Assembly (NCBI GenBank): GCA_026388095.1
Contig: JAPLKL010000034.1
Span: 1-32,793 of the forward strand
Length of the DNA stretch: 32,793 bases
Origin: Elusimicrobiota bacterium
Lineage (GTDB): Bacteria; Elusimicrobiota; Elusimicrobia; UBA1565; UBA9628
Reading direction: 5' to 3'
This document shows, one piece after another, positions 27,585 through 31,801 of this stretch. A program made the position numbers and the translations under genes. The notes below the pieces were generated by a model. That model worked only from the letters and a program-made list of their open reading frames with translations. It was not told the DNA's origin and did no database searches. How positions within the stretch are numbered: position 1 is the stretch's first letter; each line of letters opens with the position of its first letter.

Positions 27585-27998
27585 ATGGACTGCCCTAAGT
27601 GCCTGCAGACCAAGCTGGAGAGCGTGAGCGTGCCGTTCCGGGACCGCAGCATACCGGGGCCGGACGACACCATGGGCAAGATCGAGCTGGACCTGTGCGC
27701 CTCCTGCGGCGGGGTCTGGTTCGACAAGGACGAGCTCGACCGCTACCTGGACTCGGCCGCCAAGCCCTTGCCGGCCATGGCCAGGACGGTGGACCCGGCG
27801 CAGGACTCCAAAAGCGGGCTCTGCCCGCGCTGCGGCGTAGCCATGATGAAGAAGCCGGCGCCGGGCAACCCGAGGATCACCGTGGATACCTGCGCCCTGT
27901 GCGGCGGGCTCTGGCTGGACGCGGGCGAACTGGAGCAGGCGGCCGGCAAGGGCCTGCCTTTCGCGGAGCGGCTCAAAGCCGCCTTCGGCGGCGCCTAA
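27585..27998 (+). CDS. double zf-TFIIB-type zinc-ribbon protein
   Basis: The 137-residue protein has two copies of the TFIIB-like zinc ribbon (PF13453). The first is CPKC (3-6) with CASCGGVWFDKDEL (38-51). The second is CPRCG (79-83) with CALCGGLWLDAGEL (104-117). Each supplies four Cys ligands and the characteristic W[FL]D..EL. Such small bacterial proteins are common and mostly uncharacterised. An AGGAGGG ribosome-binding site precedes the ATG, unlike the leaderless-looking neighbours. Its TAA stop interleaves with the stop of the convergent polymerase gene. Confidence 0.88.
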   Translation: MDCPKCLQTKLESVSVPFRDRSIPGPDDTMGKIELDLCASCGGVWFDKDELDRYLDSAAKPLPAMARTVDPAQDSKSGLCPRCGVAMMKKPAPGNPRITVDTCALCGGLWLDAGELEQAAGKGLPFAERLKAAFGGA

Positions 27999-30217
27999 GG
28001 GAAGAGTTCTCCCTGGCGCGGCGGCCGCGTCGCGGCCGGCTCGGGGGCGAGCCCCGCTAATATCTCCTCCGCGGCCCGGTCCAGGAGCTCCAGATATTTC
28101 CCGACATCGTACTCCAGCGGCCCGTCCATCAGCGCCACCGGCTTGGTCCGCCAATCCTTGACCTTGTCCTTGGCCGCCGTCATCACGTAGCGCACCGCCT
28201 CACCCGGATGCAGTTCTATTCCCGCCGCCGCCATCTGCTTGGCCGCCAAGGCCGGAAGGGTGTCGTGGACATACTCGGACGGCGCCTTGGACAGGTTGAA
28301 GGTGATGGCCAGCTCGTCCGCCGTCACCTGCCCATCTCTTATCCGCGAGCGATACCCCTCCACCGATTCCTGCAGGCGCGGCATCAACGCCCGGCACCCG
28401 GCCAGGTCCGGAGCCGCGGCCAACAGCGCCAGCAGGTCGCCCTGCATCGCCTTGATGAGCTTCGGCGTATCATGCCTGCGGCAAGCGATGCCCCGGATCT
28501 TCAGCTCCCCGTCCTGAAACGCCCCGAAATACCGGTTCGGCACCCCGGAGCGCGCATCCTGCTTCGACGGACAAAAACGGATCCACTTATAAACCCCATC
28601 CAAGGACAGCGGACAGTCCGCCTCCTTCTCGACGAGCAAACGAAGCTCTTCCAGATCCGTGCCCGGCGGGAACTGCACCCACAGACAGTCAACCAGAGCG
28701 TGCAGCATGCGCAGACCACGACCCTCCAGCACTTCCTTGGCCCGAAGCAGGACCTCCCGGCCCCAGGCGTTGACGCATTCGTGCGACTCGATCTTGCCGA
28801 AGCGCGCGTTCTTAAAGCCAAGGTAGCCGAAACAGCACACCAGACACCACTTATGCGCCGCTGCGCGAGCCTTGTAGACCGCCGCCCCCGGCCCCCCCGC
28901 CTTGGCCAAGACCTTGTAGCGCGCCCGCTTCTCCAAGATCGGCGCCAGCACCGCAGGCACCAGCCCCTGGCGCTTGCGGCAAAGATGGTGACCGATCTCA
29001 GGCACGATGTTATCCGTACAGCAGGAGCAGTTCACAGTCTCAGGGCTGATGTTGTGCGACACCATCATCTGCGGATACATCGAGGTGAAATCGTACTCAG
29101 CCACCCTCTCGTACCAGGCCGGCTCAGGCTCATAGACCAGACCCCCCTTGTCCGCCACCAGGAAATCGTCGGCCGAGCGGAAATCCTCGGCCTGGGCCTT
29201 GTCCATCGGGATGAGGACTCCCTTCTTCACCGCCCAGGCCATCTGCATCGAGGACAACGACGTGCCGATGGTGCAGCGCGCCGCGCGCTGGACCGGGATC
29301 TTGGCGATGCGGGCGATCTCGAAGAGGCCTTCCAAGCCCGTCTCGCGCAGCATGAAGCTGTTCTTATAGTCGAGGTGCCACCGGCCGAACAGATAGCGCG
29401 CTCCGCCCTGATAGATCGTCCTGCCGTAGGTGTAGAAGCTCCGTTCAGGACGGCCCGCCATGCCGCGGGAGGAGTCGCGGGACAGCGGCAGTTCCAGGCC
29501 CAGGTCCCGGGCTTGGGCGTCGAGCTGGGGTAAAAGGAAGCTGTCGCCCCAGTCCGTGGTGAGCACGTCCGGGTCGTACTGCTCGATGCGGCGGCGCAAA
29601 GACTCGAGCTGCTCTGAGAGCCCCCCCTCCAACTCGTAAGAGAGGCCTTCGACCTTGATGACCAGAGTGCCCCTGGGCTTGTGGTTCGGGTCCACCAAGC
29701 CCGCGCCCTCGGCAGCGGCCAGCGCCAGGTGCATGATGCGCAGAGGCGGCAGCTCATAGTCCACGGCCCATGGATCATCGCGCAGTTCCCAGGAGCGCAG
29801 TCTGCTGCCTTCCACCTCGAAGGCGCAGCGCGCCAATGGGAAGTGCCCGCGCTCGTAGTGATAAGCCTGGACCAGGTGGATGTCCGCGCTGAAAAGCGTC
29901 GCGCCCTGCTCGCGCAGCTGAGCCGCGAGCTTGGCGGATGCCGGAGGCGGCACGCGCACCTGCAGGACGCTCAGAGACTCGCCGGAGAAAAGCTCGAGGC
30001 GCTCCACCGGCCGGACATCCACCGGGAAAGGACGGCCGCGCAAGAAGGCCAAGGCCCCGCGCACGACCTCCGCGCTTCCCGACAGATAGAGCGCGGGCTG
30101 CCAGACGTCCAAAAAATCATGGGCGCGGCCCTCGACGTCGATGACCCAGACCCGCATGCCCTCGGACTCGGGGTAGGCGTCGAAGAGCCACCCCTCAAGT
30201 CTTCTCCTTCTGTTCAT
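27995..30217 (-). CDS. family-B DNA polymerase, PolB2-like, with altered motif C
   Basis: The 740-residue protein follows the order of a B-family polymerase. The exonuclease region is degenerate: KVEG (188-191) replaces the D-x-E of motif I and GDSFLLP (224-230) lacks the motif II Asp. HLDYKNSFMLRETGLEGL (281-298) and GTSLSSMQMAWAV (318-330) lead to the palm. Motif A is EYDFTSMYP with Asp376. Motif B is KWCLVCCFG (456-464). Motif C is LVDCLW with Asp510, but the second Asp of DTD is Leu512. A Cys cluster (CSCC 397-400, C413) follows motif A. The C-terminal QGELF (735-739) fits the beta-clamp-binding consensus QxxLF. These traits match the PolB2 group, whose archaeal members are linked to translesion synthesis. 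It is the last gene of the lexA operon and overlaps the small upstream gene by 23 bp. Confidence 0.85.
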   Translation of the reverse strand: MNRRRRLEGWLFDAYPESEGMRVWVIDVEGRAHDFLDVWQPALYLSGSAEVVRGALAFLRGRPFPVDVRPVERLELFSGESLSVLQVRVPPPASAKLAAQLREQGATLFSADIHLVQAYHYERGHFPLARCAFEVEGSRLRSWELRDDPWAVDYELPPLRIMHLALAAAEGAGLVDPNHKPRGTLVIKVEGLSYELEGGLSEQLESLRRRIEQYDPDVLTTDWGDSFLLPQLDAQARDLGLELPLSRDSSRGMAGRPERSFYTYGRTIYQGGARYLFGRWHLDYKNSFMLRETGLEGLFEIARIAKIPVQRAARCTIGTSLSSMQMAWAVKKGVLIPMDKAQAEDFRSADDFLVADKGGLVYEPEPAWYERVAEYDFTSMYPQMMVSHNISPETVNCSCCTDNIVPEIGHHLCRKRQGLVPAVLAPILEKRARYKVLAKAGGPGAAVYKARAAAHKWCLVCCFGYLGFKNARFGKIESHECVNAWGREVLLRAKEVLEGRGLRMLHALVDCLWVQFPPGTDLEELRLLVEKEADCPLSLDGVYKWIRFCPSKQDARSGVPNRYFGAFQDGELKIRGIACRRHDTPKLIKAMQGDLLALLAAAPDLAGCRALMPRLQESVEGYRSRIRDGQVTADELAITFNLSKAPSEYVHDTLPALAAKQMAAAGIELHPGEAVRYVMTAAKDKVKDWRTKPVALMDGPLEYDVGKYLELLDRAAEEILAGLAPEPAATRPPRQGELFP

Positions 30218-30440
30218 GGTCCAGGATCTGCCTCTGCAGGGCCACCAGCATGGCCATGAAGGCCGCTTCCATGGGCAGGGGCCGGCTGGCCATGGAGGCG
30301 GCCGCGGCCTGGCGGCGCGCGGCCCGCCACAGAGCGTCGAAGGCCTCCTGGTCCTCCTTGCGCAAAGCGCGGCGGAAGAGCTTCCACGCCGCTTCCTCCG
30401 ACTGCAAGGTCATCACGATCGTCGGCAATGTGCGTCCCAT
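30195..30440 (-). CDS. small helical protein encoded between the RecA-like gene and the polymerase
   Basis: The frame encodes 81 residues, mostly amphipathic helix: LFRRALRKEDQEAFDALWRAARRQAAAAS (about 21-49), then MEAAFMAMLVALQRQILDHEQ (57-77). The hydrophobic spacing, an AGAGGTG ribosome-binding site before the ATG at 30440 and the 23-bp overlap with the polymerase support a real gene. An internal ATG at 30413 is an alternative start. The function is unknown; its position suggests an accessory subunit of the polymerase. Its first 227 bases are also covered by the RecA-like frame, and that alternative reading looks Gly/Pro-rich and unnatural. Confidence 0.65.
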   Translation of the reverse strand: MGRTLPTIVMTLQSEEAAWKLFRRALRKEDQEAFDALWRAARRQAAAASMASRPLPMEAAFMAMLVALQRQILDHEQKEKT

Positions 30441-31038
30441 GTTCCATCACCTCTTCTTTCTCTATCGCGCGCAGGCGCGGAGCCTGCCCGTCTTCTTCGA
30501 GCCAAGCCAGGCGCTTGGACTGCCGGACCAAGGCCTGCAGCACGTCCTGGCGGCCCTCGGGCCGCTTGCGCATGACCGCGAGCACCAGCCACACGGCCGG
30601 AAGCCGGCGCAGGCCTTCGAGCAGGCCGGCCAGCGCCTTGGGGACCTCCGCGTCGGGCAGGTCCTCATCGTAGAAAGGGCCCAAAGGGTCGCAGAGCACC
30701 ACCGGCTCCCCCTTCCAGAGCGCCGGGAGCTTGGTCTTGACCATGGTCTGCAGTTGGAAGACGTTGAAGGGACGGGCCAGGCTGATCCTGGACAGGATGC
30801 GGCGAGGTTCGAGGCCCAGGGCCTGGGCCGTGCGGCTGAGGCCGTGCGCGTCGAAGCTGTTGCCCGCGTCTATCCAGAAGACGCGCGCTCCCTGCGCCAG
30901 GGCCGGGACCAGGCTGCGCAGGAACCATGAGGGCAGAAGGCGGCCGCCCAGAGCCGTGTAGATCCCGGCCTGCAAAGGCTGGGAAGAGAGCATGGGCTCC
31001 AGGGACTGCGGCAGAGCGGCTGGCACGGGAGCCTCCAC
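30214..31038 (-). CDS. RecA/Rad51-fold protein lacking a P-loop (ImuA-like position)
   Basis: Residues about 20-182 resemble a RecA/RadA core: ARVFWIDAGNSFDAHGLSRTAQALG (51-75) matches the strand after the P-loop plus the 'D-x-g-S-F' helix start, and GEPVVLCDPLGPF (110-122) matches a Walker-B-like strand. Where the Walker A motif should be (about 30-45) there is no GxxxxGK[ST], so ATP binding is doubtful. Residues after about 199 are read out of frame over the small downstream gene and look non-natural. The true C-terminus may lie near 200, with a lost stop, a frameshift or a real long overlap. GTG at 31038 follows the lexA stop by seven bases. The position and fold recall ImuA of the DnaE2 mutasome. 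Confidence 0.6.
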   Translation of the reverse strand: MEAPVPAALPQSLEPMLSSQPLQAGIYTALGGRLLPSWFLRSLVPALAQGARVFWIDAGNSFDAHGLSRTAQALGLEPRRILSRISLARPFNVFQLQTMVKTKLPALWKGEPVVLCDPLGPFYDEDLPDAEVPKALAGLLEGLRRLPAVWLVLAVMRKRPEGRQDVLQALVRQSKRLAWLEEDGQAPRLRAIEKEEVMEHGTHIADDRDDLAVGGSGVEALPPRFAQGGPGGLRRSVAGRAPPGRGRLHGQPAPAHGSGLHGHAGGPAEADPGP

Positions 31039-31045
31039 GCCACGT

Positions 31046-31642
31046 CTATCTATTATTGTAGCGCCGGACCAGTCCTATGACGAGTCCGATGACCTGGAAG
31101 GCCCTGGTGATGGGCGGATAGCGGGGGTTGGCGGACTCGAGCTGATAGCCTCTGCCGGTCTTCCTGAGGCGCTTGACCACGCCTTCCTCCTCCACCAGCG
31201 CCACAACGACGTCGCCGTCCACGGCCGTGGGCTGACGGCGCACCTGGACGAGGTCCCCCTCCAGGATGCCGTCGCCCTCCATGGAGTCGCCCTTGACGCG
31301 CAGGAGGAAGTCCGTGCCGAGCGCGAAGTCCCGGAACCCGTAGTGGGCCTCGATGTGGTCCATGGCCAGCACGCCGGTCCCGGCGCTGACCCGGCCGAGG
31401 ATGGGGATCTGCAGGCCGGGCACGGCTCCGGTGAGCGAAAAGCCCCGGGCCAGCCCCGCCTGCCTCTTGATGCAGCCTTTGGCCTCCAGGGCCTGGAGCT
31501 GGTCCTGGACCGTGCCCACGGACACGCCGAAACGGCGGCCGATCTCGCGCAGGGTCGGGTAGAATCCATGGTCCTGGAAGCAGTCGACGACGAAGTCCAG
31601 GATGCGCTTCTGTTTGGGGGTGGGCTCGTGGGTCATGGTCAT
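31046..31642 (-). CDS. lexA: LexA SOS repressor
   Basis: This 198-residue protein has a winged-helix N-terminus (PTPKQKRILDFVVD, LREIGRRFGVSVGTVQDQLQALEAKGCI) and a S24-type self-cleaving domain. The cleavage site is Ala87-Gly88 (GRVSAGTG), with nucleophile Ser120 (KGDSM) and general base Lys157 (VVKRL). LexA represses DNA-damage genes until RecA filaments provoke its cleavage. The recognition helix (about 39-52) differs from the E. coli sequence, consistent with a different operator. The ATG at 31642 is chosen because it lies exactly where transcription should start downstream of TATACT; in-frame starts at 31648 and 31636 are possible. It heads the operon with the RecA-like, small and polymerase genes. 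Confidence 0.93.
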   Translation of the reverse strand: MTMTHEPTPKQKRILDFVVDCFQDHGFYPTLREIGRRFGVSVGTVQDQLQALEAKGCIKRQAGLARGFSLTGAVPGLQIPILGRVSAGTGVLAMDHIEAHYGFRDFALGTDFLLRVKGDSMEGDGILEGDLVQVRRQPTAVDGDVVVALVEEEGVVKRLRKTGRGYQLESANPRYPPITRAFQVIGLVIGLVRRYNNR

Positions 31643-31648
31643 GGCCAT

Positions 31649-31676
31649 AGTATACACTACATTTGTAGTGTGTCAA
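31649..31676 (-). promoter_or_regulatory. lexA promoter with an 18-bp palindromic operator
   Basis: On the minus strand TTGACA (31676-31671) and TATACT (31654-31649) are 16 bases apart. The perfect 8-2-8 palindrome ACACTACAAATGTAGTGT (31671-31654) fills the spacer and touches both hexamers, so a bound repressor would exclude RNA polymerase. It differs from the Gram-negative CTGT-N8-ACAG and Bacillus GAAC-N4-GTTC boxes. The start codon at 31642 sits at the expected transcription start, implying a leaderless mRNA. Confidence 0.75.
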
Positions 31677-31733: not shown

Positions 31734-31801
31734 TTATCCACAAACTTGCCCCGGGGCAAGTTGTCAGGTGAACACTCTGTACGTACAGAGTCTATGGATA
31801 A
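31734..31801. promoter_or_regulatory. two palindromes bracketed by inverted DnaA-box-like sites
   Basis: TTATCCACA (31734-31742, plus strand) matches the consensus DnaA box, and TTATCCATA lies in inverse orientation at 31801-31793. Between them are the perfect palindromes AACTTGCCCCGGGGCAAGTT (31743-31762) and ACTCTGTACGTACAGAGT (31774-31791). They occupy the gap between the flavodoxin-like gene and the lexA promoter. No T tract follows either stem, so a simple terminator is unlikely. Confidence 0.5.

Follow-up and report, generated by a model that had tools for sequence, protein, structure and literature searches.

Here we report the analysis of a four-gene locus in a 32,793-nt stretch of DNA from an Elusimicrobiota bacterium, a stretch that is called the window throughout. 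On the minus strand of the window, at positions 27995-31676, open reading frames for LexA, a RecA-like protein, a small protein and a B-family DNA polymerase follow one another in this order behind one palindromic promoter, as the first-pass annotation of this DNA had described. The polymerase is referred to below as PolB2 and its two partners as iRadA (the RecA-like protein) and PPB2 (the small protein), names that come from PMC11791011. The features of the locus, all on the minus strand, are:

31671..31676, minus strand: -35 box TTGACA, read from the sequence and kept in relatives
31654..31671, minus strand: predicted LexA operator, ACACTACA-AA-TGTAGTGT, proposed from its sequence, its uniqueness in the genome and the palindromes that relatives have at this place in the promoter
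31649..31654, minus strand: -10 box TATACT, read from the sequence and kept in relatives, with the 16-nt spacer filled by the operator
31046..31657, minus strand: lexA, SOS repressor with a winged HTH and an S24 peptidase domain (TIGR00498, PF00717, PF01726)
30214..31038, minus strand: iRadA, RadA/Rad51-fold protein without Walker A, from PDB fold matches, weak family matches and the stops of relatives
30195..30440, minus strand: PPB2, small helical partner of the arCOG07300 type, from its MGRTLPTI N-terminus and profile matches
27995..30217, minus strand: PolB2, B-family DNA polymerase (PF00136, NF004416; alignments to solved polymerases)

The spacing is also as annotated, a 7-bp gap followed by overlaps: 7 nt separate lexA from iRadA, the iRadA frame shares 227 nt with PPB2, which is read in a different frame, and PPB2 and PolB2 have 23 nt in common. 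The first gene product matches TIGR00498 with 149.4 bits against a cut-off of 110.95, as well as the S24 peptidase (PF00717) and LexA HTH (PF01726) models, and by these family matches it is certainly LexA, the single one in this genome. The listed lexA start, a GTG, falls within the operator, and an ATG at 31642 or 31636 is more likely the start. Many Elusimicrobiota have the lexA ATG about 6-8 nt past the -10 box (window 31636-31654, L019, L020, L024, L025, L043, L044, L046, L054, L064), and thus the lexA mRNA is probably leaderless or nearly so.

The polymerase and its two partners

The polymerase matches the PF00136 and NF004416/PRK05761 models as well as solved archaeal B-family enzymes. 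It had been described as lacking apparent proofreading, and its alignment to a solved B-family polymerase bears this out, since the D-x-E of Exo I is replaced by A-x-A in the profile of the window family ('lrvlhlala' versus 'lrvlafDiE') and the Asp of Exo II is also lost. At the polymerase site, motif C of the window protein reads L-V-D in place of D-T-D, so that the first Asp of DxD is lost; among ten aligned PolB2 proteins this motif is LVD, or NVD in one of them, with the Val and the second Asp invariant. Motif A (DFTSMYP) is intact and is likewise invariant in ten aligned PolB2, and a D(K/R) motif is present in the IPMDK loop (PMDK). The C-terminal QGELF, which is QLRLF in G037, resembles a beta-clamp motif as judged by eye with no profile scored; only some members of the family have a clamp-binding motif in PolB2 or iRadA. 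With ten aligned sequences as input, the single-chain model of PolB2 reached a mean pLDDT of 67, too poor for structure to add anything on the polymerase.

The small helical protein of the first-pass annotation proved to be PPB2. Its MGRTLPTI start is found in all 12 aligned sequences (the window and 11 relatives), and the PPB2 profile matches in each of the 67 usable loci of the survey described below. The MGRT N-terminal arm of PPB2 is singled out in PMC11791011.

Sequence matches of the RecA-like protein to the Rad51/RadA families are weak, and its model has a pLDDT of about 85-96 over residues 21-180, with Rad51, RadA and Dmc1 as the top PDB folds (E 1e-9, probability 1.00). Walker A, searched as GxxxxGK[ST], occurs in none of 73 iRadA family sequences, in agreement with the proposal of a RecA-fold protein devoid of a P-loop. 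The frame has a conserved core, and its last approximately 75 codons form the non-conserved overlap with PPB2. The conserved core stops near 30450, and iRadA ends 7 nt ahead of the PPB2 ATG in G001 and G041 and about 22 codons inside PPB2 in three genomes of the g9 group, while most of the window extension has low pLDDT and models as disordered. Because relatives stop earlier and the extension models as disordered, the tail is probably not a real domain, and loss of the usual stop, rather than a new domain, is its natural reading. That the long overlap represents true dual coding, by which iRadA would have gained a 75-residue C-terminal domain, is favored by a frame that stays open through to 30214 with a stop overlapping the polB2 start codon; we reject this explanation as very improbable, given the earlier stops in all five relatives named above and the low pLDDT across most of the extension.

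Operator, promoter and predicted LexA regulon

The window promoter has the form TTGACA-16-TATACT, and its spacer is occupied by ACACTACAAATGTAGTGT (31654-31671), a palindrome that is perfect save for two central bases and follows the pattern CACTACA-N2-TGTAGTG. The strict form occurs once in the whole 4.6-Mb genome, which contains no second copy of the operator even when up to 3 mismatches are allowed. When leaders of Elusimicrobiota operons were scored for a palindrome inside the promoter with 7 of 8 paired positions, 14 of 18 contained one, versus 0 of 5400 first-order resampled leaders; this count, together with the uniqueness of the operator in the genome, means that the palindrome-in-promoter arrangement is more than chance. 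Relatives keep the layout with different letters (CCCTACATATGTAGGG, CTGGACAATTGTCCAG, CTGAACATCTGTACAG, TCGAACACGTGTTCGA). In genomes of the g9 and g12 groups, where lexA lies elsewhere, the box upstream of iRadA is like the one upstream of lexA, for example TCGAAC-N4-GTTCGA ahead of both genes, and in G037 and G043 a LexA-type box stands immediately ahead of PPB2. A simple scan found no palindromic promoter in many operons of Nitrospirota, Acidobacteriota and Ignavibacteria, and LexA control of this form may therefore not be universal, a point that we count against our best explanation of the locus. The operator core is counted 3 times versus 108 for its reversed control, a depletion that rare CTA/TAG words may cause.

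With one LexA in the genome and one strict operator in 4.6 Mb, this operon may make up nearly the whole SOS regulon. We tentatively propose, at somewhat less than an even chance, that LexA is a nearly private switch in this Elusimicrobiota genus, where the only strict genomic operator would drive the PolB2 mutasome and a single mutasome operon would be what is left of the SOS regulon, or what it started from, while recA would lie outside the regulon; no such box was seen upstream of the recA of this genome. The regulon may nevertheless be wider than one operon, because a one-mismatch site, CTATATATGTAG (L072, L071, around 1501), lies just ahead of a pilB/gspE-like gene and is conserved in G000 and G001, and because weaker sites could be missed as well. 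The site may be another target of LexA or no more than a -10 region. Most of the near-matches to the operator look non-promoter on inspection and were rejected as LexA sites.

Two further palindromes lie upstream of the operon. The perfect palindrome ACTCTGTACGTACAGAGT (31774-31791) has one more exact copy in the genome (G000:C51:42855), within TTATCCACCGACTCTGTACGTACAGAGTCGGTGGATAA, an intergenic repeat whose ends resemble DnaA boxes. As this only other copy belongs to a longer inverted repeat, ACTCTGTACGTACAGAGT was rejected as a LexA box. The palindrome AACTTGCCCCGGGGCAAGTT (31743-31762), which lies between the FMN-reductase gene and lexA, is followed by TGTGGATAA; it resembles a terminator or else belongs to the same repeat as ACTCTGTACGTACAGAGT.

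Distribution and mobile copies

Among the relatives of the window, PolB2 matches are patchy and were found in 13 of 57 genomes, including 2 of 7 in its own genus. In GTDB contigs, 287 stretches encode relatives; the best 80 of these, assigned to taxa by record title, come from Elusimicrobiota, Nitrospirota, Chloroflexota, Acidobacteriota, Ignavibacteria/Bacteroidota, NC10, Rokuibacteriota, Omnitrophota and others, and 67 loci, from about ten phyla, had enough upstream sequence to be usable. The profile search detected iRadA in 62 of the 67 loci and not in the other 5. The check that the first-pass annotation had suggested, namely a conserved gene order across phyla, thus came out positive for the trio, the order iRadA-PPB2-PolB2 being constant in all 62 loci, and lexA lies directly ahead of the trio in 27 of the 67. 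PPB2-PolB2 pairs without an adjacent iRadA have their own LexA-type promoter in G037 and G043 (L026, L029). In G006, a genome of the same genus (L054, G006:C22:1-2254), a LexA 82% identical to that of the window and nearly the same operator precede a PAS/kinase-like gene that replaces the trio, and the next frame resembles the zinc-ribbon neighbor of the window; the two loci likely offer a gain/loss comparison.

PolB2 is also encoded in four Leptospira phage records (33-34% identity). The one inspected, KF114878.1, has a complete iRadA-PPB2-PolB2 trio (L165:3201-6274), with profile matches ahead of PolB2 to iRadA (E 2e-19) and to PPB2 (E 4e-19), the latter with an MGRT start and annotated merely as a 132-nt ORF. 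Related polymerases are carried by many haloarchaeal plasmids, and in the one inspected Cdc6, two hypothetical ORFs and PolB stand in a row. A search of IMG/VR found no relatives. The main text of PMC11791011 does not mention phages or plasmids.

A predicted LexA-controlled PolB2 mutasome

The gene set has been described before. In 2014, PMC4104785 placed PolB2, arCOG07300 and an inactivated RadA together in predicted operons, which in some bacteria also include lexA; its typical case is Leptospirillum ferriphilum LFML04_0990-0993. A PolB2-iRadA-PPB2(3) complex was modelled in 2025 as the 'PolB2 mutasome' (PMC11791011), where iRadA-PPB2-PolB2 is the only order in bacteria and lexA is enriched beside bacterial polB2, and PolB2 was placed in group G2 of bacterial polymerases in 2026 (PMC12926913). 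The locus is very probably a bacterial PolB2 mutasome operon, for which control by LexA, induction by damage and activity in translesion synthesis are predicted. PMC4104785, PMC11791011 and our sequence tests of families, lost residues, MGRT start, gene order and operator all fit the earlier proposal of a LexA-controlled, PolB-based mutasome in which the RecA-like and small proteins are accessory subunits; as an 'alternative SOS mutasome' the system is supported in its mutasome part but is not new. New details here include the palindrome between consensus -35 and -10 boxes, its same place in relatives, including trios without an adjoining lexA, and its resemblance there to the box of lexA itself.

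Archaeal PolB2 operons are DNA-damage-induced and mutagenesis depends on PolB2, and from such published systems we infer damage induction, translesion activity and a heteropentameric complex for the window operon. In the undamaged cell, LexA would sit on the palindrome between the -35 and -10 boxes and block its own operon. DNA damage would lead to RecA filaments and LexA self-cleavage, upon which lexA, iRadA, PPB2 and PolB2 would be produced together. Lacking proofreading and with its metal site altered, PolB2 would continue synthesis from primer ends that are mispaired or contain lesions, the enzyme being completed by iRadA, RadA-like with no ATP site, and by PPB2 with its MGRT arm. The C-terminal QGELF, we infer, could tether the enzyme to the beta clamp.

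An opposite reading of the altered metal site, in which PolB2 has no catalytic activity and the complex has a regulatory or structural role, for instance controlling replication or recombination at damage, follows the 2014 authors, who took the family as inactivated (PMC4104785), and is in line with the loss of the first Asp of DxD. It appears very improbable to us, however, since the ten aligned sequences all keep motif A and the second Asp of motif C unchanged and an archaeal PolB2 with a substituted first Asp is active and required for targeted mutagenesis (work cited in PMC11791011). Slightly less probable still is a constitutive trio with lexA as a mere neighbor that runs an ordinary SOS regulon. 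The 27 of 67 loci with lexA directly in front, and the lexA of G006 with nearly the same operator and no adjacent trio, would suit such a neighbor, but the lexA/iRadA gap of only 7 nt, the LexA-type box of trios where lexA lies elsewhere and the lack of another strict operator in this genome argue for control by LexA.

A LexA-controlled mutasome at this locus would add Elusimicrobiota operons to the known PolB2 system, which in bacteria is little tested experimentally, and the locus gives concrete predictions for an operator, a promoter and a regulon. If true, an SOS response cut down to a single mutagenic operon would provide a simple natural model for induced mutagenesis.

The closest known system is the Leptospirillum ferriphilum LFML04_0990-0993 type (PMC4104785, PMC11791011), which has the same four families, order, motif losses, MGRT start and LexA association, whereas the window operon belongs to another phylum, has its own operator and contains the long non-conserved iRadA/PPB2 overlap. 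The archaeal PolB2/Dpo2 operon of Sulfolobus and haloarchaea likewise consists of iRadA, PPB2 and PolB2, and in the haloarchaeal plasmid copy the places of iRadA and PPB2 ahead of PolB are taken by two hypothetical ORFs of suitable length; archaeal copies, however, are linked to an Orc1/Cdc6 homologue and the window operon to LexA. ImuA-ImuB-DnaE2 is similarly LexA-controlled, with a RecA-like accessory protein and an error-prone polymerase, but combines a C-family polymerase with an inactive Y-family ImuB in place of the B-family enzyme. Membership in that system was rejected, since PolB is the only polymerase of the operon and the one Y-family gene of the genome lies on another contig; the window system works like ImuA-ImuB-DnaE2 and is not a member of it. 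E. coli Pol V (UmuD'2C-RecA), whose architecture is compared with that of PolB2 in PMC11791011, is likewise an SOS-induced translesion polymerase of several subunits, one of them from the RecA family, and is built from a Y-family polymerase, UmuD' and active RecA, where the window encodes B-family PolB2, PPB2 and iRadA.
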